Below, in pieces: positions 1 through 37,734 of a stretch of 37,734 nucleotides of DNA (position 1 is its first letter; each line of letters opens with the position of its first letter). The DNA is from a virus. Location of the stretch: positions 1-37,734 of the IMG/VR virus record IMGVR_UViG_3300044631_001997; one strand, 5' to 3'. A program made the position numbers and the translations under genes. The notes under the pieces were generated by a model that did no database searches, was not told the origin of the DNA, and saw nothing but the letters and a program-made list of their open reading frames with translations.

Positions 1-217
1 GGTTCGGGGCGTGTGCCCAGTCGAGAGCTACCGTGAGCCGCTCTTCCCGCTCAAGCAGCTCCGCAGCCCACTCCGTGAAGTGGGCCTCCTCTTCATCGTA
101 GGCGTGAGACGCTGACTGCTCGTCCTCTTCCTGCTCCCCCGCACGCTTGCGGAGGTCGTCTTCCCACTCTTCGAGCGCGTCGAGAGCGGCCCGGACTTTC
201 ATGTAGACATCAGACAT
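1..217 (-). CDS. Hypothetical acidic helical protein (3' end beyond window)
   Basis: This is the N-terminal 72 residues of a gene that runs off the left edge. It starts at an ATG (215-217) that overlaps the TGA stop of the DNA polymerase by 8 nt, so the two are probably translationally coupled. The product begins MSDVYMKVRAAL and is very rich in Glu, Asp, Arg and Ala, as expected for a long, highly charged helix or coiled coil. No catalytic motif is visible. The function is unknown. Being last in the operon behind the polymerase suggests a replication accessory role, but that is inference from position only. Confidence 0.6.
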   Translation of the reverse strand, partial: MSDVYMKVRAALDALEEWEDDLRKRAGEQEEDEQSASHAYDEEEAHFTEWAAELLEREERLTVALDWAHAPN

Positions 218-3200
218 CCTTCCACGTCCTCCCGATTGCAGCTTCGCCAAAGAACTCGACGCCCGGCAGACCCGGATGTATCCGGCCCATGCACTTTGTC
301 AATACTGCCGCGACAGATTCAGCCTCGCTCTCTGGGACCTCCAGTACGATGGCGTCGTGGCACTGGTTGATAACCCCCGTACCGGGGCCCCACTTGAAGA
401 ACGGGACCTGCTCAATCAGGTCCAGCATGGCCATGTTCATCAGGCCCGCGGCCCCGCCCTGAATGGGGAAGTTGACGATCTCGTTGGGGTTCTCCCCGTC
501 GAGGAAGTCGCGGCGGCGGCCCATGACCGGTTCGAGGAGGAAGCCGTTCTCGCGCCACGTCGCGACCTCGCGCTCCCATCCCGCCTCGAATCCCACCGCG
601 TTCTGCACCCAGTTGGTGTGCATGGATCGAACTTCGCGGAGGCTCAGGTTGATGTACGGCAGGTCGGTCGTGCCGTCGTCCAGCTCGACCTCGGTCTCGG
701 TGAGCACCTTGTGGACGGTCTCCGCGGTCCCCATGTAGAGCGAGTTGTGGACGAACACGCCCGAGTCGGTCGCGAAGTTGTGATCCTCGTGATCTACCTC
801 GATGTCCCACACTTTGTCTTCGCCGACGTCCTCGACCGAGACGACAACGTGGTTGACTGCCTCCGAGTTCCCTCGCCAGTACGCAGGGATACCACGAGAC
901 TTCCGGTAGTACGACACGTTCTCTGGCGTGCAGCCTGCCAGCTCTGCCACCTCACGGTCGGGAAGAACACCGATCTTGTCGGAGAAAGCATCGAGCTTGC
1001 TCGTATACTGCTGGGGGTTGGCAGCCTTACCGACTTTGATCTTACGAATCGCCTCTTCTCGCCGGGGGCCGTTCCACCGATCTTGCATCTCCCTTCGGAT
1101 CGCTTCGTGCCACTTCGCGCTCTTCTTCCGGCCCGCAGCGAGTCGTGCTTGCATGTCTGCTGGAAGGTTGAGTCGAAGAGCCGTCAGCTTCGACTCTCGA
1201 TCCTCCTGCCAGTGCAGCTTCGAGTGCTCCGACATCGACGCGACGTACTCCAGGTTCTCAGGCGCGTTGTTGCACCGAAGCCGATCTCGGTGGTGAACGT
1301 GTCCAGGAACCTTAGCCTCCAGCCCAAGGACCTGTCGGTGCTCCCCATTGCGCGTGTTCGTGTTGGTGGCATCGAGCACCCGGTACCCTTCCGACGACGC
1401 CCAGCGACGGAAAGGCATCAACCGGTCATCGGGGCGAAGGTTCCCCGCAGCTCGGAACGTACCATCCCGCAGCATGCAGAGATGATCCGGCGTGAGGTCG
1501 ATCTCAGTGAACTTCCGGCGCCCCTTCTGCCGGTCGTCTCGCAGCTTGATGCGAACAAGGCGGCGCACGCCAGTCTGCATCTTCGCAACGATCTTGGCCG
1601 GCTCATATCTCTGCCGCGTGATGCTCCACGCCCACGTCCAGTCTTGCCCTGGAACGATCTGCTCGATGGGCTTGGAGCCTTCTGGGCCGAGCGTGACCAC
1701 CCGCGTCCCCTGCCGCGCGCAGGCGTAGCACACGCGCTTGGCGAGGTCACGGAGGGCCTTGGCTTCCCCGCTCCACTTCGCATCGGCGTCGGGGAGGAAG
1801 AGGTTGCCGTCCCAGCGGCCCTTGGCGAAGCCCTGCGCCCGCTTGAAGCGCTCGCCGAAGACCATGTACGCCGTCATGGCGTGAGGGTCGGCTCCTCGGC
1901 GGAAGGCGTCGAGGTACAGCTCGCAGCCCCAGCGAGCCGCGGCAACTCGAAGGTCGATCTGGTTGGCGTCCGCACCGACGAACAGGCGGCCGGCTGGCGC
2001 CGCGACGATGTCCTTGAGGCTGGACGGGAAGTTCATCGCGTTGATCGGCTTGGAGCTGGACAGGCGGCCCGTCACGGCGACGTGCGCGTTCCAGCCGGGG
2101 TACATCCGGCCGGTCACGGACGAGACGATCCCGAACTTCTTGTCGCCCCGAGCGAGGCGCGACTCACGGTCGGCCTGCTCCTCTTCGTCGTCGAATCCCT
2201 CTTCCGCGAGCTGCTCCTGGTAGCGGAGCTTCACGACGTAGGTCCCGAGCTTCTTCTGGACAGCGCGGTAGCGCCGAAGCTGGAGGATGAAGTCCTTGTG
2301 GTGCGGGTCGAGCTTGGGGATCGTCAGGAAGCTGCGCAGGACCGTGTCCGACGTGGACGGGTCTCCCGTCTCGGTCGTCCGCTCCTCGATGTCCAGCGGT
2401 GACTCCAGCTTCCAGCGCTCGAAGAGCAGATCCCGAAGCTGGGTGACGCTTCCCGGGTTCAGGTTCGGCAGGCCGGACAGCTCACGCAGGTTCGCGAGGT
2501 ACGTGAACATGCCGATGTACTTCTTCTCCTTGCCGTCCTTCTTCTTCTCCGTGCCGCCGATGGTCAGCATGCGTTCCCACCAGAGCCGGCGCTTCTGGTC
2601 CACGGGCATGCCGTTCTCCTTCATGCCGGCGCAGACCTGCGCCATCTGGTGGTCGGGCTTGACCAGATGGGCCTGCCCCCGAACCTGCACGGCCGCCCAC
2701 AGAGGGTCGAGCACGCGCGCGGTCAGCGCGACGTCGCGGCCGCCGTAGAGCCACAGCTCCTCGTCGGTTTCCGAGCCATATGCGCGCTTCTTGCCCGCAC
2801 GATCGACCTTCCACTGCGGCGCGTCGGTGTAGTAGGTTGCGACGAAGCCGAGGTTGTGCGGCAGCTCCGACTCCTTGAGTCGGTGCAGGAGGATGCCGTC
2901 GAGGTGCCCCGGGATGTCGCGGACGCCGAAGAAGCGACGGATCAGGTGCGAGTCGTACGCGATGTTGTTCCAGCCGAACTTGACGGTCTTGGGGTTCGCG
3001 AAGAACCCGTTGAACGCCCGACTCAGCCGCTGCTCCTGCTCCGGCGTGTAGAAGTGGGTCGATCCATCTACCCCGAGGTACGCAACGATCAACACCTCGT
3101 TCTTGGTGCCGACTTGGACCGTGCGCAGGTTCGCCGTCAGGGGCTCGATGCCGTCAGTCTCGGTGTCGTAGGTCCAGACCTGCTCCGGACGCGACAGGAA

Positions 3201-3941
3201 CGCCTCGACGAACTCGATCGGAGGGTTGTAGTGGATGACCGGCTCTTCCCACTCGATGGCCCCGTTGAACCACCTGGCCGCTCGCGCGAGGTCCGCACGG
3301 AACACGGGCGTCCACCGTCGAGCCCGCATCACGAAGGACGGGTGGAGCGTCGGCAGGATCTTCACCTCGGGGAAGCCCGGCGGAGGCTCGGAGCCAGGCT
3401 CCAACAGGCGGAGTCGGCCCTCGTGCCAGTACGCCGTGATCATGCCTCCGCGGAGGTCCATGATGGACGTTGGGCCGATCAGAGCGCGAGAAGCGACGGA
3501 GCCTGCCACGATGATGTGGCGGTAGGACTGGATCGACGAGAAGAGCCGCGGCGTGCAGCACTCTTGCGGGGTCGGGACCATCGGGAGCGGAGCGTCGCCG
3601 CAGGCGAGTCGGTGCCGGTTCTCCTCCTTGATGTCCCGGTTCCGCTTCTGGATCTTCGCCAGCACCGCCGAGAGCTTGTTGTTCGGGGGTCGACAGAGCA
3701 GGACGTTGTCGATGTGGAGCTGGCCGCGCAGGATGCCCACGTTGTGGAGCGCCTGCGTGATCTCGGTGCCGGAGGGCCCGACGAAGGGGCGGCCCTCACG
3801 AACCTCGTGCTCGCCGGGAGCTTCCCCGATGATGGCGATGGTGGCGTGCGGATTGGACTCAGGAGGGACGGGAACCCCATCCCGCATGTCGTGGAGGGGG
3901 CATCTCCAGCACTGCGCTCCGCAGCGCTCAGGCTCGTACAT
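210..3941 (-). CDS. Uracil-DNA glycosylase / family A DNA polymerase fusion, intein-containing
   Basis: A 1243-residue precursor, numbered from the ATG at 3941, chosen because GAAGAGG lies about 9 nt upstream; an in-frame TTG at 3962 is the alternative. Residues ~7-205 match family 4 type uracil-DNA glycosylase: Cys7/11/14 and Cys128/129 (likely Fe-S ligands), GEAPG at 39-43, GRPFVG, and the HPS motif at 200-202. Next comes a 3'-5' exonuclease with DTET at 259, then the family A polymerase: motif A aspartate 658 (ADANQIDLR), motif B R731/K735/Y739...Y1069, and motif C HD at 1195-1196. The Tyr at 739 sits where T7 polymerase has Tyr and Taq has Phe. A 326-residue intein (741-1066) splits motif B, leaving a 917-residue spliced enzyme. 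It is probably the replicative polymerase, with uracil detection built in. The UDG-Pol fusion is seen directly; its biological role is inferred. Confidence 0.93.
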   Translation of the reverse strand: MYEPERCGAQCWRCPLHDMRDGVPVPPESNPHATIAIIGEAPGEHEVREGRPFVGPSGTEITQALHNVGILRGQLHIDNVLLCRPPNNKLSAVLAKIQKRNRDIKEENRHRLACGDAPLPMVPTPQECCTPRLFSSIQSYRHIIVAGSVASRALIGPTSIMDLRGGMITAYWHEGRLRLLEPGSEPPPGFPEVKILPTLHPSFVMRARRWTPVFRADLARAARWFNGAIEWEEPVIHYNPPIEFVEAFLSRPEQVWTYDTETDGIEPLTANLRTVQVGTKNEVLIVAYLGVDGSTHFYTPEQEQRLSRAFNGFFANPKTVKFGWNNIAYDSHLIRRFFGVRDIPGHLDGILLHRLKESELPHNLGFVATYYTDAPQWKVDRAGKKRAYGSETDEELWLYGGRDVALTARVLDPLWAAVQVRGQAHLVKPDHQMAQVCAGMKENGMPVDQKRRLWWERMLTIGGTEKKKDGKEKKYIGMFTYLANLRELSGLPNLNPGSVTQLRDLLFERWKLESPLDIEERTTETGDPSTSDTVLRSFLTIPKLDPHHKDFILQLRRYRAVQKKLGTYVVKLRYQEQLAEEGFDDEEEQADRESRLARGDKKFGIVSSVTGRMYPGWNAHVAVTGRLSSSKPINAMNFPSSLKDIVAAPAGRLFVGADANQIDLRVAAARWGCELYLDAFRRGADPHAMTAYMVFGERFKRAQGFAKGRWDGNLFLPDADAKWSGEAKALRDLAKRVCYACARQGTRVVTLGPEGSKPIEQIVPGQDWTWAWSITRQRYEPAKIVAKMQTGVRRLVRIKLRDDRQKGRRKFTEIDLTPDHLCMLRDGTFRAAGNLRPDDRLMPFRRWASSEGYRVLDATNTNTRNGEHRQVLGLEAKVPGHVHHRDRLRCNNAPENLEYVASMSEHSKLHWQEDRESKLTALRLNLPADMQARLAAGRKKSAKWHEAIRREMQDRWNGPRREEAIRKIKVGKAANPQQYTSKLDAFSDKIGVLPDREVAELAGCTPENVSYYRKSRGIPAYWRGNSEAVNHVVVSVEDVGEDKVWDIEVDHEDHNFATDSGVFVHNSLYMGTAETVHKVLTETEVELDDGTTDLPYINLSLREVRSMHTNWVQNAVGFEAGWEREVATWRENGFLLEPVMGRRRDFLDGENPNEIVNFPIQGGAAGLMNMAMLDLIEQVPFFKWGPGTGVINQCHDAIVLEVPESEAESVAAVLTKCMGRIHPGLPGVEFFGEAAIGRTWKDV
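744..1721 (-). other. Intein with HNH homing endonuclease domain, inside the polymerase
   Basis: A 326-residue in-frame insertion. It begins with Cys1 (CARQGTRVVTLG, block A) and ends in the canonical His-Asn (DSGVFVHN), followed by extein Ser+1. Block B is visible as TPDHL, about 76 residues in. The middle has an HNH-type signature (GHVHHRD, then CNNAPENLE and SEHSKLHW) and a helix-turn-helix-like stretch (LPDREVAELAGCTPENV) that may help bind DNA. All splicing residues are present, so it should be active. It interrupts the polymerase O-helix between the catalytic Tyr739 and Tyr1069, a highly conserved site typical for homing inteins. Without splicing the polymerase should be dead. Confidence 0.93.
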
Positions 3942-4122
3942 GCTGTTGGGCCTCTTCGACAAGGTGGGAGCAGAGAACGCAGACTTCCGTGCCCTCCCAG
4001 TCCTTTCGGCGAGCGGCTTCGACGTGACCGCACCAGAGGCGGCCCGCTTCGTGTTTCACCGACCGGTCCTCGGGCAGAGCCCCGAGCGTCGTATCAGGTC
4101 GAGGGGCAGCGCGCTTGGTCAC
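3928..4122 (-). CDS. Small Cys/His protein of unknown function
   Basis: A 64-residue ORF from a GTG codon, overlapping the polymerase ATG by 14 nt. Its C-terminal half contains LWCGHVEAARRKDWEG followed by VCVLCSH, a plausible C-x-H...C-x2-C zinc-binding site. No obvious Shine-Dalgarno sequence precedes the GTG. The overlap with the next gene and the motif favour a real gene. The GC-rich sequence means an accidental ORF is possible, so confidence is moderate. Confidence 0.45.
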   Translation of the reverse strand: MTKRAAPRPDTTLGALPEDRSVKHEAGRLWCGHVEAARRKDWEGTEVCVLCSHLVEEAQQHVRA

Positions 4123-5985: not shown

Positions 5986-6011
5986 TTTCTATGGATTAGT
6001 GTCCATAGAAA
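5986..6011. promoter_or_regulatory. Perfect 10-bp inverted repeat, candidate operator
   Basis: TTTCTATGGA and TCCATAGAAA are separated by 6 nt. It lies in the 211-bp gene-free stretch 5836-6046, between the stop of the upstream ORF and the start of the Sak4 gene. It is AT-rich against a GC-rich background and has no following T-tract, so a repressor site seems likelier than a terminator. I find no convincing TTGACA-type promoter in the gap. Confidence 0.5.
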
Positions 6012-7488: not shown

Positions 7489-7516
7489 CCCGTAATGGGA
7501 GCGCGCCGGTTGTCAA
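7489..7516 (-). promoter_or_regulatory. Promoter of the nuclease operon, leaderless type
   Basis: TTGACA (7511-7516), a 16-nt spacer and TACGGG (7489-7494). The -10 ends 6 nt before the ATG, predicting transcription starting at or within a base or two of the start codon. Confidence 0.6.
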
Positions 7517-18588: not shown

Positions 18589-18782
18589 GCTTTGGGGGTG
18601 ATTCGGGTGGAGACGTCGCCCTGCGTACACCAGCAGTCGCCCTCTCGGACTTGGGCTGTGGCGGGGTCGCAGGCTTCTTCGCAGAGTGCGGCTCGACGAG
18701 TGGCGGCGGGCTCAGGCAACAGGACGGCGAGGAACATGATGCTCACGACGAACCCAACAAAGAAGGCCATGAAGGCGTTCAC
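18573..18782 (-). CDS. Small membrane protein
   Basis: 69 residues from a GTG overlapping the phosphoribosyltransferase stop (GTGA). Residues 4-24 are a hydrophobic segment (FMAFFVGFVVSIMFLAVLLP), a likely single transmembrane helix or uncleaved signal. Four cysteines follow in a short polar tail (CEEACDPATA, GDCWCTQG), which could pair as disulfides outside the membrane. The topology and role are unknown; its place behind the NAD genes may be accidental. Confidence 0.6.
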   Translation of the reverse strand: MNAFMAFFVGFVVSIMFLAVLLPEPAATRRAALCEEACDPATAQVREGDCWCTQGDVSTRITPKAWTTP

Positions 18783-20242
18783 AGGCGGCCTGCTGCGACG
18801 CGGTCGCGGATCTCAGCGAGGGTAGGCAGGTTCATCGAGTAGCCGTTGCTGAAGACCTTTCGGAACTCGCAGTGCGTCACGTCATGCCACGAAGCCTGCT
18901 GCTTGAGGAAGAGCTTGTCCTCGGCGTCACGGAACACCGCAAGCAGCCCCCGCGCGGACTTCTTGGTGCCGTCGTCGGTCTTCGGGTCCTTGAAGATCTC
19001 CCGCAGCTCTCCTTCGACGGAACAGGCGGTCGCCTTCATCGCGAAGCCGAAGGTATCTCGCGTGTTGTACTGGTAGGTGTACGATCCGATGCCGAGGACC
19101 ATGCCCGGCACGAAGCCCTTCGCCATGAGCCCCGCACAGATCTGTGCGGCTCGGTCGAGGGTGATGGAGTCCCCGTAGATGAGCCCGATGTGGGGGTCGA
19201 GCACCTTGTAGCCCTTGTCGGTGACGGTCCCTCCGAACAGCTCCCAGGCCAGCTCGAAGGAGCCCTTGAACGCGGGGGAGCCTTCGGGGGCGTCGATGTC
19301 GCCACAGATGACCTTCACCGGGTCTCCACTGTCGGGACGGATGACCAGCTTGCCATCTCGCTGGAGGATCACGTCGCGGAGCTGAGGAAGGATGTTCGTC
19401 CAGACGCCCCAGTAGTCCCAGGTGTCCGAGACGATGGACGCAATCCCCGTCGGGTAGACCTCAGTGAGCAGGCGCCGGTAGGTTTCCACCTCGCCTTCCT
19501 TCGACCCGGCGCACATCACCGAGTGCTCGGTCGCGGGGACCGACCCGGCAACCAGCTCCGTGTCGACGTCGGCCCCGTAGTATTCCTCCACGAAGTCTAC
19601 GGCGAAGACCGTGTCGGAGCCCGTGAATGAGGTGAGGTGACCCGCGCCCGACAGAGCCGCGGATTCGACCCCGGCCATCCCGCGGGCCGAGAAGTCGTGA
19701 GCCTGCCAGCTCACGAACTCGGGAGCGCCGCCAGTGGTCTTGGCGACGTGGTCGAGGATGCGGCGGTACTCGGCCGCGAGGGTCGCCGAGGTGGTCGCCT
19801 GCCAGATCGTGTTCGAGAGACTCGTCTCCAAGTAGTTGGTGAGCCACGAGAAGTCGCAGTGCGTGTTCCAGATCACGAAGCTCGGCACTCCGATGGGAAC
19901 GCGCGTCCCTTCCGGGAGGCTCCAGATCTCGATGGGGAGGTAGCCGAGGTCGTGCAGGGCTTCCATGTGGTCTGGGTGGGCGGTCACGCCGAACGCCGCC
20001 AGCCGGCGGATGTACTTCTTGATGACCTTCTCCTTGGGCTGCGAGAAGAAGTGCTCGGTCCAGCCACGCTCCAGAAGCTCCTGGATGTAGTAGGAGAGGC
20101 CGAAGTGGATGGTCTCCTCGATCCCCGGGATGCGGCTCTTGCGTCCAGTCCAGTTGGAGAAGACCAGATCGGTACCCGGCGGGTACTGGCGGCGGTGGTC
20201 AGCCTTGTAGCTGTCGATGATGTGCTGGGTGGGGATGCGCAT
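18779..20242 (-). CDS. Nicotinamide phosphoribosyltransferase family enzyme (NadV/NAMPT or Namat type)
   Basis: 487 residues, the family's usual length. Motifs match NAMPT throughout: DSYKADHRRQYPPGT at the N-terminus; WQAHDFSARG and TSFTGSDTVFA around the nicotinamide pocket; SVPATEHSV with the catalytic His; IVSDTWDYW; VIRPDSGDP, which binds phosphoribose; and IYGDSITLD. Known members join nicotinamide to PRPP to give NMN. In the phage NARP1 pathway a paralogue (Namat) joins nicotinamide to ADP-ribose pyrophosphate and makes NAD+ directly. The adjacent PRPP-synthetase homologue, 7 bp away, fits either route. I cannot separate the two chemistries from sequence alone. Confidence 0.92.
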   Translation of the reverse strand: MRIPTQHIIDSYKADHRRQYPPGTDLVFSNWTGRKSRIPGIEETIHFGLSYYIQELLERGWTEHFFSQPKEKVIKKYIRRLAAFGVTAHPDHMEALHDLGYLPIEIWSLPEGTRVPIGVPSFVIWNTHCDFSWLTNYLETSLSNTIWQATTSATLAAEYRRILDHVAKTTGGAPEFVSWQAHDFSARGMAGVESAALSGAGHLTSFTGSDTVFAVDFVEEYYGADVDTELVAGSVPATEHSVMCAGSKEGEVETYRRLLTEVYPTGIASIVSDTWDYWGVWTNILPQLRDVILQRDGKLVIRPDSGDPVKVICGDIDAPEGSPAFKGSFELAWELFGGTVTDKGYKVLDPHIGLIYGDSITLDRAAQICAGLMAKGFVPGMVLGIGSYTYQYNTRDTFGFAMKATACSVEGELREIFKDPKTDDGTKKSARGLLAVFRDAEDKLFLKQQASWHDVTHCEFRKVFSNGYSMNLPTLAEIRDRVAAGRL

Positions 20243-20249
20243 GGGAGAC

Positions 20250-21014
20250 TCAGTAGCGGGGGTAGTGGGGGAAGAAATCGTAGTTGTCGCTGGCGGCGTA
20301 GACGTGGTCGAACGCAGGAGAGAGCACTTCGCGGCCCTTGGTGAAGAGGCCGTGCGAGACGACCAGAGTCAACTTCGCGGCGCCGTTCTCTCGCAGGAGC
20401 TTGGCCAGCCCGAGGAACGTGCCGCCGGCATCGCAGATGTCGTCCACGATCACACAGTCTCGGCCCTTCACCTTGTCCGCGTCGAGCAACTGGAAGTTGG
20501 AGAGCTTGCCGGTCGCCGTGTCTCGTTGCTTGAGGCCCTGCACGTAGTCGTTCCGGCCGAGCCAGGTGTACGCCTTCTTGGTCGCGCCTGCGTCGGGGAT
20601 GACGAACAGGTCGGTGGGAAGGATGAAGCCTACGCTGCGGAATCGAGCCACAACGCTTGCTTGGGTGATGTGGGGAAGCTGCCCCGCCACATCGGAATGG
20701 GGGTCGAGGATGACCACGTTGAGGTTCTCCCGACGCACGAGGTCGAGCGCCAGCTCCAGCTCGAACCCATCGTTGGGTGTGCTGCGCCGGTCGTCGCGGG
20801 CGAACGGGAAGTAGGGGATGTACCACTCGATCTCGACGTCGTTGTAGATCCGCTTCATCAGCCGATTGGCTACGACTACATCGCAGAGGTCGTTGAAGTT
20901 GCGGACATCCGCTCGGATCGTCCCGAGGCCGTCTCCCAGCACGATCTTCTTCAGGTGGGTTTCCCCCGAAGGGTAGGTCGTCCGTGCGAACACGTCCTTG
21001 AAGTTGACCGGCAT
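20250..21014 (-). CDS. PRPP-synthetase family enzyme (Prs or Adps type)
   Basis: 254 residues, shorter than cellular ribose-phosphate pyrophosphokinases (about 310). It shows PYFPFARDDRR (the family's ATP/metal segment), LDPHSD, a flexible-loop-like stretch, and VIVDDICDAGGTFL (PRPP-loop type). The second, regulatory lobe appears trimmed, as in phage versions. It either makes PRPP from ribose-5-phosphate or, as Adps of the NARP1 pathway, pyrophosphorylates ADP-ribose. The next gene uses such a product with nicotinamide. Together they should rebuild NAD+ during infection. The promoter is not obvious; a strong GC hairpin (21048-21070) precedes the gene. Confidence 0.88.
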   Translation of the reverse strand: MPVNFKDVFARTTYPSGETHLKKIVLGDGLGTIRADVRNFNDLCDVVVANRLMKRIYNDVEIEWYIPYFPFARDDRRSTPNDGFELELALDLVRRENLNVVILDPHSDVAGQLPHITQASVVARFRSVGFILPTDLFVIPDAGATKKAYTWLGRNDYVQGLKQRDTATGKLSNFQLLDADKVKGRDCVIVDDICDAGGTFLGLAKLLRENGAAKLTLVVSHGLFTKGREVLSPAFDHVYAASDNYDFFPHYPRY

Positions 21015-21153: not shown

Positions 21154-21254
21154 ATCCGCGAGATAACGATTACTCTATCGGGCCATTGTGCAGGAAGAGA
21201 GGGGCTTCCTGCGTAGGTGGCGGCCCGAGCCGGACTTGAACCAGCATCTCGGAT
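21154..21254 (-). tRNA. Candidate circularly permuted tRNA gene (unit 2)
   Basis: On the minus strand the 3' half comes first: ATCCG (21254-21250), AGAT, T-arm GCTGG-TTCAAGT-CCGGC (21245-21229), acceptor TCGGGCC (21228-21222), G, CCA (21220-21218). After a 33-nt linker comes the 5' half: acceptor GGCCCGA (21184-21178), TA, D-arm GAG...CTC with A14, A15, G18 and A21 in place but T19 not G, G26, then CGGAT (21158-21154). Acceptor pairing is 7/7 and anticodon stem 5/5. Beyond the stem, leader TCGCCACGC (21269-21261) pairs with trailer GCGTGG-A-CGA (21141-21132). The anticodon is not certain, since the loop must be formed by joining; position 33 reads C in the simplest register. Confidence 0.5.
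21190..21212. repeat. Perfect hairpin inside the linker of tRNA-like unit 2
   Basis: GCAGGAAG and CTTCCTGC form an 8-bp stem with a 7-nt loop. It occupies most of the 33-nt segment between the encoded CCA and the 5' acceptor strand. Such a hairpin would bring the two halves together and could be the processing target. Confidence 0.6.
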
Positions 21255-21322
21255 TGGGTGGCGTGGCGACTGAGATTTGTGGGCACTCGACTGAGGCAAA
21301 CTATACGAGGAACTTATCACTT

Positions 21323-21412
21323 CTCTCGCCCATTATAGTGGGTGCGTCTACCATTCCGCCACCCCGGCTCAGTTGGTTGGTGCCGGGGGCTGGGCTTGAA
21401 CCAGCAAGAGAG
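21323..21412 (-). tRNA. Candidate circularly permuted tRNA gene (unit 1, Leu-like D-arm)
   Basis: The 3' half comes first: T-arm GCTGG-TTCAAGC-CCAGC (21405-21389), acceptor CCCCGGC (21388-21382), A73, CCA (21380-21378). A 9-nt linker (21377-21369) leads into a leucine-tRNA-like 5' half: acceptor GCCGGGG (21368-21362), TG, and D-arm GCG-GAATGGTAGA-CGC. Acceptor pairing is 7/7. A CCCA-CTATAA-TGGG arm follows, one base short of a normal anticodon loop. GAGAG (21327-21323) can pair with CTCTC (21412-21408) as a long variable arm, which would put the break in that arm. The anticodon assignment is doubtful. Confidence 0.4.
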
Positions 21413-21460
21413 TTGGGTGAGAATCAGTCTGATCGTGACAGTGAGCTATGCCTCGGTGGA

Positions 21461-36380: not shown

Positions 36381-37142
36381 TCAGAGCTTGGACAGAAGGT
36401 CGCTGGACGAGAACCGAGGCTGAGCGGGCTCAGGAGCCGCTCGGGGGCGGGGGGTAGCCTTCGGGTCGAACGGCAAGCTCGCGCTGTCCTCGGGGGCCAA
36501 GGGCAGCGAGTAGAGCGTCTCCAAGTCGCCCCGCGAGAGGGGCACGAGCGACTCGGGCACCTCGGGGAACAGGGGGGCCTCCTCGACAGGCCACTCATCC
36601 TCCGCGGCGAGTGCCGGCCACGCCCACTCTCGGTAGCGCAGCACCTCGGCCAGCGCGAGCGAAGCGGTCCGCTTGCCGTCACCGTACAGGAGCGTCACCA
36701 GTGGAAGGGCGCTGCCCTGCTCCAGCGTCGCTCGCACGCCTGCTTGCACATGCCCCCACCGGAGCCCGTGCAGTTCCTTCGCAGGCACGCCGAGCTGCTT
36801 GAGGAAGCGGCGCATGGGCAGGCGGTCCACCTGCGGCGTGCGGGAAACCACGACGACCGGCTTGGGGGCCCGGCCCGAGGGGAAGTCGGGCAGGCTGAAC
36901 CGCGACAGCTCCTCGTCCTGCGCGCAGAAGGTCCGGTACGCCCGCCACCCAGCCTGCGCAATCGAGTAGTGCGACGGCTTGTAGCGCTGGAGGCTCGCCA
37001 GGAGCAACTCCGGCGTCATGGGCGTCTCGACCCCCTCCAAGAGCTTCTTGGGCCACTTGGCGTACTGATACGCGGTCGCGGGGTTGTAGTTGTTCGCGAG
37101 GAGCCACTGGAAGAACAGGTCGGTGGGGTCGAAGGACATCAT
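36381..37142 (-). CDS. Tyrosine-recombinase-like protein lacking visible catalytic C-terminus
   Basis: 253 residues from ATG 37142, which lies 6 nt after the -10; GTG 37148 is in frame. The N-terminal ~90 residues (DLFFQWLLANNYNPATAYQY, LASLQRYKPSHYSIAQAGWR) resemble the SAM-like core-binding domain of phage integrases. ELHGLRWGHVQAG recalls the first catalytic-Arg motif. No H-x-x-R or active-site Tyr follows; instead an acidic, Pro-rich tail begins near residue 170. It may be a decayed integrase or an arm-site-binding factor. The resemblance is by eye and weak. Confidence 0.6.
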   Translation of the reverse strand: MMSFDPTDLFFQWLLANNYNPATAYQYAKWPKKLLEGVETPMTPELLLASLQRYKPSHYSIAQAGWRAYRTFCAQDEELSRFSLPDFPSGRAPKPVVVVSRTPQVDRLPMRRFLKQLGVPAKELHGLRWGHVQAGVRATLEQGSALPLVTLLYGDGKRTASLALAEVLRYREWAWPALAAEDEWPVEEAPLFPEVPESLVPLSRGDLETLYSLPLAPEDSASLPFDPKATPRPRAAPEPAQPRFSSSDLLSKL

Positions 37143-37148
37143 GCCCAC

Positions 37149-37177
37149 CCTCTACCCTGCCCTTGCGCCCCTGTCAA
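37149..37177 (-). promoter_or_regulatory. Leaderless-type promoter next to the tandem repeats
   Basis: TTGACA (37172-37177), 17-nt spacer, TAGAGG (37149-37154), then 6 nt to the ATG at 37142. The -35 touches the first copy of the 78-bp repeat. Confidence 0.7.
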
Positions 37178-37322
37178 GCGATAAGAAATAAGTGATGGGG
37201 TGCTGTTGAGTATTCACGCGGGCGCGCGAGAATCCCTCACTTATTGCTGGGTGCAGCGATAAGAAATAAGTGATGGGGTGCTGTTGAGTATTCACGCGGG
37301 CGCGCGAGAATCCCTCACTTAT
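37177..37322. repeat. Two 78-bp direct repeats
   Basis: Bases 37177-37244 and 37255-37322 are identical over 68 bp, with a 10-bp gap unique to the first. Each copy has AATAAGTGA and, 41 nt later, TCACTTAT, which can pair, and a GC core (ATTCACGCGGGCGCGCG). A partial third copy of the left part (AAGAAATAAGTGATGG) lies at 37426-37441. Function could be origin iterons, operators or a recombination site. Confidence 0.85.
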
Positions 37323-37353
37323 CACTTACTCCCTTCCTCCTTCTCCTGCTCTC

Positions 37354-37423
37354 GGCGCCTTGGCGCCGGCTATCTGTCCTTTAGGACAAAGCTCTCCCGA
37401 CCCCCTCTCTAAAGAGAGGGGGT
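37354..37423. repeat. Three consecutive perfect snap-back hairpins
   Basis: GGCGCC-TT-GGCGCC (37354-37367), TGTCCT-TT-AGGACA (37375-37388) and ACCCCCTCTCT-AA-AGAGAGGGGGT (37400-37423), with stems of 6, 6 and 11 bp and 2-nt loops. Such a series is unlikely by chance and does not code. Confidence 0.75.
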
Positions 37424-37424
37424 G

Positions 37425-37492
37425 TAAGAAATAAGTGATGGTGTGGTCCTTCGCATACGTGAAGGCGTCAGGACCCCATTAGTTATTTCTTA
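37425..37492. repeat. Long inverted repeat
   Basis: TAAGAAATAA (37425-37434) pairs with TTATTTCTTA (37483-37492), and inside it GGTCCT (37445-37450) with AGGACC (37470-37475), giving a two-part cruciform. It reuses the start of the 78-bp repeat. The 104 bp from 37493 to 37596 contain short GC repeats (CTGGAAGCGGC twice) and no gene I can support. Confidence 0.7.
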
Positions 37493-37596
37493 TTGCTTAT
37501 CCTCCGGAGCCGACTGGAAGCGGCCTGGCGCCGCCTGGAAGCGGCGCGTGGGGGTGAGGGAAAGGAGGGACACGGGCATGGTTCGCAGCCTATCAG

Positions 37597-37734
37597 CTAT
37601 CGCGCAAGCCGGCAACGCTGTTCGTCAATCATCGCGCGCACCTGTTCGATAGTGGCGGGCTGACCTGAGAACTTCGCTGCTGGAACCAGCGGGGTGTCAG
37701 CCGGATCCACCATGTCTGGCGACCGCCACGCTCG
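37597..37734 (-). CDS. C-terminal end of an unknown protein (5' end beyond window or ATG 37713)
   Basis: An open frame from the right edge to a TAG at 37597-37599. It reads ...SPDMVDPADTPLVPAAKFS and QVRAMIDEQRCRLAR at the end. An internal ATG at 37713 would give a 38-residue peptide. No promoter is seen inside the window, so a longer gene entering from the right is likelier. The composition is like the real genes here, but the piece is short. Confidence 0.4.
   Translation of the reverse strand, partial: RAWRSPDMVDPADTPLVPAAKFSGQPATIEQVRAMIDEQRCRLAR

Follow-up and report, generated by a model that had tools for sequence, protein, structure and literature searches.

The window, i.e., the whole stretch of DNA analyzed here, is the linear virus record IMGVR_UViG_3300044631_001997 of 37,734 bases, a GC-rich phage fragment (GC content of 0.65) in which, according to the ORF list, nearly all genes are oriented leftward. 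It encodes SF1 and SNF2 helicases, a PD-(D/E)XK nuclease, a Sak4-like annealing protein, and a DUF3987/primase-like protein. Two leftward genes close to the right contig end are separated by a noncoding gap of 448 bp (37149-37596), whose GC content of 0.57 compares with 0.65 for the contig. The gap extends from the stop codon of one gene to a promoter-like site of the next, and the gene for the DUF3987/primase-like protein is located approximately 3 kb away. The 255-residue product of the downstream gene gave no match in Pfam, PHROG, or PDB; its AlphaFold model, calculated without an alignment, is all-helical and of low confidence (pLDDT of 44). The features of the gap and the genes flanking it are as follows:

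36381-37148, minus strand: downstream gene, 255 residues from GTG 37148 or 253 residues from ATG 37142
37149-37177, minus strand: predicted promoter TTGACA-N17-TAGAGG with leaderless geometry, abutting A1
37177-37254, no strand assigned: palindromic element A1, arms ATAAGTGAtGGG and CCCTCACTTAT plus an inner hairpin; the palindrome occupies 37177-37250, and the range to 37254 is the first 78-bp unit of a tandem duplication
37255-37328, no strand assigned: palindromic element A2, first 68 nucleotides identical to A1
37312-37441, minus strand: alternative multibranched RNA fold enclosing H3, H2, and H1 (z of -5.9)
37353-37368, no strand assigned: hairpin H1, CGGCGCC-TT-GGCGCCG, 7 bp, perfect inverted repeat in the sequence
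37375-37388, no strand assigned: hairpin H2, TGTCCT-TT-AGGACA, 6 bp, perfect inverted repeat in the sequence
37400-37423, no strand assigned: hairpin H3, ACCCCCTCTCT-AA-AGAGAGGGGGT, 11 bp, perfect inverted repeat with no T run on either side
37425-37492, no strand assigned: palindromic element A3, right arm ACCCCATTAGTTATTTCTTA, left half-site as in A1 and A2, interior different
37506-37547, no strand assigned: two adjacent hairpins (37506-37526 and 37527-37547), each with a CTGGAA loop, folding energy not above chance
37597-37734, minus strand: last 45 codons (3' end) of the preceding leftward gene, which continues beyond the contig edge

Hairpins and palindromic elements of the gap

A preliminary description of this DNA had reported three perfect hairpins with 2-nucleotide loops within 70 bases. 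The trio is present, except that the stem of H1 comprises 7 rather than 6 bp, and the 2-nucleotide loops exist in the sequence but not in the predicted folds, where the innermost pair opens to yield the four-base loops CTTG, TTTA, and TAAA. As RNA, the 70-nucleotide stretch folds more stably than every one of 200 dinucleotide-shuffled sequences (z of -5.0), and as DNA it likewise exceeds all 200 shuffles (z of -4.8). Taken singly, H1 and H3 exceed chance expectation (reached in 1 of 200 shuffles each), and H3 is the longest perfect short-loop palindrome found in a scan of the contig; H2 lies within chance (18 of 200) and folds one base out of register. In shuffled contigs, three stems of at least 6 bp with loops of at most 4 nucleotides occurred within 80 nucleotides in 16 of 100 cases, and a stem of at least 11 bp was found in 9 of 100. 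By itself, without its surroundings, the trio is thus weak evidence. The earlier statement that the array is not a canonical terminator holds: H1 and H3 do provide the G+C-rich hairpin of an intrinsic terminator, but a T run straight after a stem was found on neither strand of 36900-37734, and because no U tract follows the hairpins, a terminator role is weak.

The 18-nucleotide core of H3, CCCTCTCTAAAGAGAGGG, recurs in 19 other viral stretches, mostly inside longer hairpins. These resemble H3 in having the same core and loop without a downstream T run, and several of them are located in gaps between codirectional genes; they differ from H3 in the flanking stem sequences, and none of the 19 stretches matches any protein of the window. 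Judged from these sequences, the recurrence suggests that hairpins of the H3 type are common between phage genes, which does not imply a shared function.

The 70-base view proved too narrow, since the trio forms the center of a larger structured array within the gap. When window stability was corrected for GC content by regression over 470 contig windows, 37361-37520 was the most stable of all 470, and the whole gap folds with a z of -8.8 as DNA and of -7.2 as minus-strand RNA. The trio is positioned between the second and the third of three inverted pairs of half-sites, which are located upstream of the promoter-like site and comprise six half-sites, five with TAAGTGA and one variant. All six TAAGTGA copies of the contig lie in the gap (0.87 expected), a number reached in none of 100 shuffles, and the right arm of A2 carries two of these heptamers in tandem on the minus strand. 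A1, A2, and A3 share the left half-site TAAGAAATAAGTGATGG, each time faced by an arm approximating its reverse complement. When A1/A2 are compared with A3, 17 bases of the left half-site are identical, whereas interior and right arm differ, and inspection of the arm stem by eye revealed no paired compensatory changes. The constancy of TAAGAAATAAGTGATGG alongside diverging interiors and right arms points to a bound, conserved sequence rather than a selected fold alone; as A1 and A2 represent one recent duplication, the half-site pair is present in two independent copies for this comparison. The arms may also pair differently: the alternative fold at 37312-37441 joins the A2 right arm to the left half-site of A3, and several other combinations are possible. 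The interiors of A1 and A3, different in sequence, form weak hairpins in both cases.

Promoter-like site at the edge of the array

The TTGACA at 37172-37177 adjoins the array. A spacing of 17 nucleotides and a -10 box starting with TA, as expected of a promoter, are found at 37149-37177, and a start codon, ATG at 37142, is present where the transcript would be expected to start, 6 nucleotides from the -10 box TAGAGG. This box agrees with TATAAT at three of six positions, and the site was not listed by a general promoter scan. A similar element precedes six other genes (starts 7482, 9539, 16140, 18254, 22992 [with TTGACG], and 25168), and TTGACA is located 35 nucleotides before the ATG of the genes starting at 37142, 9539, and 25168. 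On the gene strand, 6 of 11 TTGACA copies lie 34 to 40 nucleotides before a start codon, compared with 9 of 358 for the remaining 179 permutations of these letters, ATTGAC accounting for three of the nine. Note that the gene starts for this count were picked by us from the ORF list, and that two of them (18254 and 37142) were revised once the motif had been seen; without both, the count is 4 of 11. The pattern TTGAC-N18-TAG was found four times, with 0.35 occurrences expected. On the minus strand, TTGAC(A/G)-N16-17-TA occurs at 7516, 9574, 16180, 18291, 23027, 25203, 32552, and 37177, and at most of these eight sites the element ends 5 to 12 nucleotides before an ATG. From the sequence, this element is probably a family of leaderless promoters of the phage.

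Leaderless genes are found in other groups besides Deinococcus-Thermus. For Deinococcus-Thermus itself, expression from a -10 box that adjoins the ORF and yields leaderless mRNA is documented (PMC12340547). The contig resembles these promoters in the -10-type box 6 nucleotides before the ATG at 37142 and in the recurrence of the element at equal distance upstream of several genes. It differs from them in a clear TTGACA -35 box and in TAGAGG, which lacks the final T of TANNNT (TAGGAT and TAGGCT elsewhere in the contig do fit).

Function of the gap

As the inverted motifs are repeated and the gap ends exactly at the likely promoter, the region is most simply explained as one of gene control and transcript boundary. 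Specifically, we give an even chance to a transcription-control region in which operator-like half-sites lie upstream of a leaderless promoter and the hairpins belong to an untranslated portion of the transcript that precedes it; function is inferred from anatomy throughout. The inverted half-sites would bind a dimeric regulator and perhaps also provide an A+T-rich upstream element for RNA polymerase, and either activity would tune the candidate promoter at 37149-37177. The hairpins would form within the 3' untranslated region of the preceding gene's RNA and might act as a boundary without a U tract, by 3'-end formation, stabilization, or processing. We count in favor of this explanation the clustering of TAAGTGA, the constant TAAGAAATAAGTGATGG, the placement of TTGACA, the excess of TTGAC-N18-TAG, the A+T-richer composition of the gap, its most stable window, the recurrence of the H3 core, and the leaderless mode of expression (PMC12340547). 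Against it we count that no relative covering the gap was found, that TAGAGG matches the consensus at three of six positions and the general scan missed the site, that A1 and A2 are a duplication, that two start codons were adjusted, and that the hairpins lack a U tract. If correct, it would equip a phage that has no close relatives with a compact control region and with a leaderless promoter that recurs, and would make gene regulation and the host group of this phage testable.

The main rival is a phage replication origin, which we consider possible but unlikely; here, the heptamers (TAAGTGA/TAAGAAA) would be iterons binding an initiator, and the hairpins would aid strand opening or priming. 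As in iteron-type origins, short repeats are clustered in an A+T-richer stretch of a GC-rich genome; the heptamers are unique to the gap within the contig, the gap as a whole folds strongly as single-stranded DNA, and a DUF3987/primase-like gene is located in the vicinity. Unlike in such origins, however, the repeats are arranged in inverted pairs and abut a promoter-like site, which transcription control explains directly, and no initiator gene was recognized, the adjacent 255-residue protein matching no initiator family in Pfam, PHROG, or PDB. A turn in GC skew is not visible at the gap, owing to its position at the contig end. Were the gap an origin, it could be used as a marker in the search for this phage group's initiator. 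The preliminary description had instead suggested primase, nickase, or cruciform functions for the hairpins, for which nothing was found in support. A known counterpart is the complementary-strand origin of phage G4, a structured element at which primase synthesizes a primer with SSB only (PMC6783573). The run of three stable hairpins is reminiscent of it, but G4 is a single-stranded DNA phage, whereas the family A polymerase, helicases, and annealing protein of the contig are as in double-stranded DNA phages, and the gap has no sequence similarity to the G4 origin or to any other phage record; a single-strand origin or a primase or nickase target is the least probable of the explanations weighed here.

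A structured RNA, also raised in the preliminary description, is more probable than this but still improbable. In this case, the leftward transcript would adopt the multibranched fold at 37312-37441, in which a long stem of half-site arms closes a multiloop with H3, H2, and H1, and the weak hairpins in the A1 and A3 interiors, formed despite different sequences, count in its favor. Against it, no Rfam family was found above the gathering score, several alternative pairings are open to the arms, and conservation is higher in the left half-site than in the arms facing it. It is about as doubtful that chance alone is at work, i.e., that three close short palindromes in a genome of 65% GC need no explanation. 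The frequency of equally dense clusters and of stems of at least 11 bp in shuffled contigs and the chance-level H2 argue for it; against it, the trio coincides with the single gap rich in repeats, where the most stable of the 470 windows for its GC content is also located, and the local fold surpasses all 200 shuffles. Finally, we assign a very small likelihood to a replication or control locus of a type new for phages, whose half-sites would switch between separate palindromes and one large structure enclosing the hairpins, so that strand extrusion would be coupled to the binding of a phage protein.

Relatives and other features of the contig

No record covering the gap at 37149-37596 was found by neighboring genes, motifs, paired arms, the A1 interior, or the whole gap. 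Specifically, the 255-residue neighbor had no relative in viral contigs, genome contigs, or phages, and the DUF3987 protein had no close one, its single match being to phage MW202554 at 22%. The 17-mer and the paired-arm pattern gave isolated matches in unrelated sequence only, the A1 interior gave none, and blastn with the whole gap returned no phage match and one short plasmid match, taken as chance. The literature yielded nothing specific on comparable phage hairpin arrays. At the gathering score, Rfam had no family for the hairpin array, and the subthreshold matches mir-4436, GRIK4 3' UTR, and CC0196 were dismissed as chance. An assignment to REP/BIME or miniature mobile palindromes was likewise rejected: the motif is confined to this gap, without dispersed copies, and matches of the 17-mer elsewhere lack the paired arms.

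Other intergenic regions also contain structured sequence. One such region harbors, at 5986-6011, a perfect 10-bp palindrome with a 6-nucleotide loop (TTTCTATGGATTAGTGTCCATAGAAA). At 21216-21420 on the minus strand, a 490-bp gap contains two 3' halves resembling those of tRNAs (T arm and CCA) and one 5' half resembling that of tRNA-Leu; as neither ARAGORN with default settings nor Rfam reported a tRNA there, these may be degenerate or interrupted tRNA genes. At 18779-21014 on the minus strand, a NAMPT gene is located beside a phosphoribosyltransferase/PRPP-synthetase-like gene, an apparent NAD salvage pair of the phage.

The search with NAMPT retrieved 29 distant records, none with the neighboring genes, and one nearly identical record (G001; 99.98% identity over 26 kb), which covers positions 1 to 27053 of the window plus 4.5 kb to its left and thus ends short of the gap. 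The shared region includes, at 210-3962 on the minus strand, a gene for a family A DNA polymerase with an N-terminal uracil-DNA-glycosylase domain and an exonuclease domain, with an insert that, judged by eye, resembles an intein carrying an endonuclease of the HNH type. Inside this insert, G001 contains an additional 288 bp (96 residues, in frame; at about 916-1003 of the window and about 5438-5813 of L106, the G001 sequence), consisting of further copies of a helix-turn-helix-like repeat (SKLDAFSDKIGVLPDREVAELAGCTPENV...). The copy number of this helix-turn-helix-like module seems to differ between near-identical phages.
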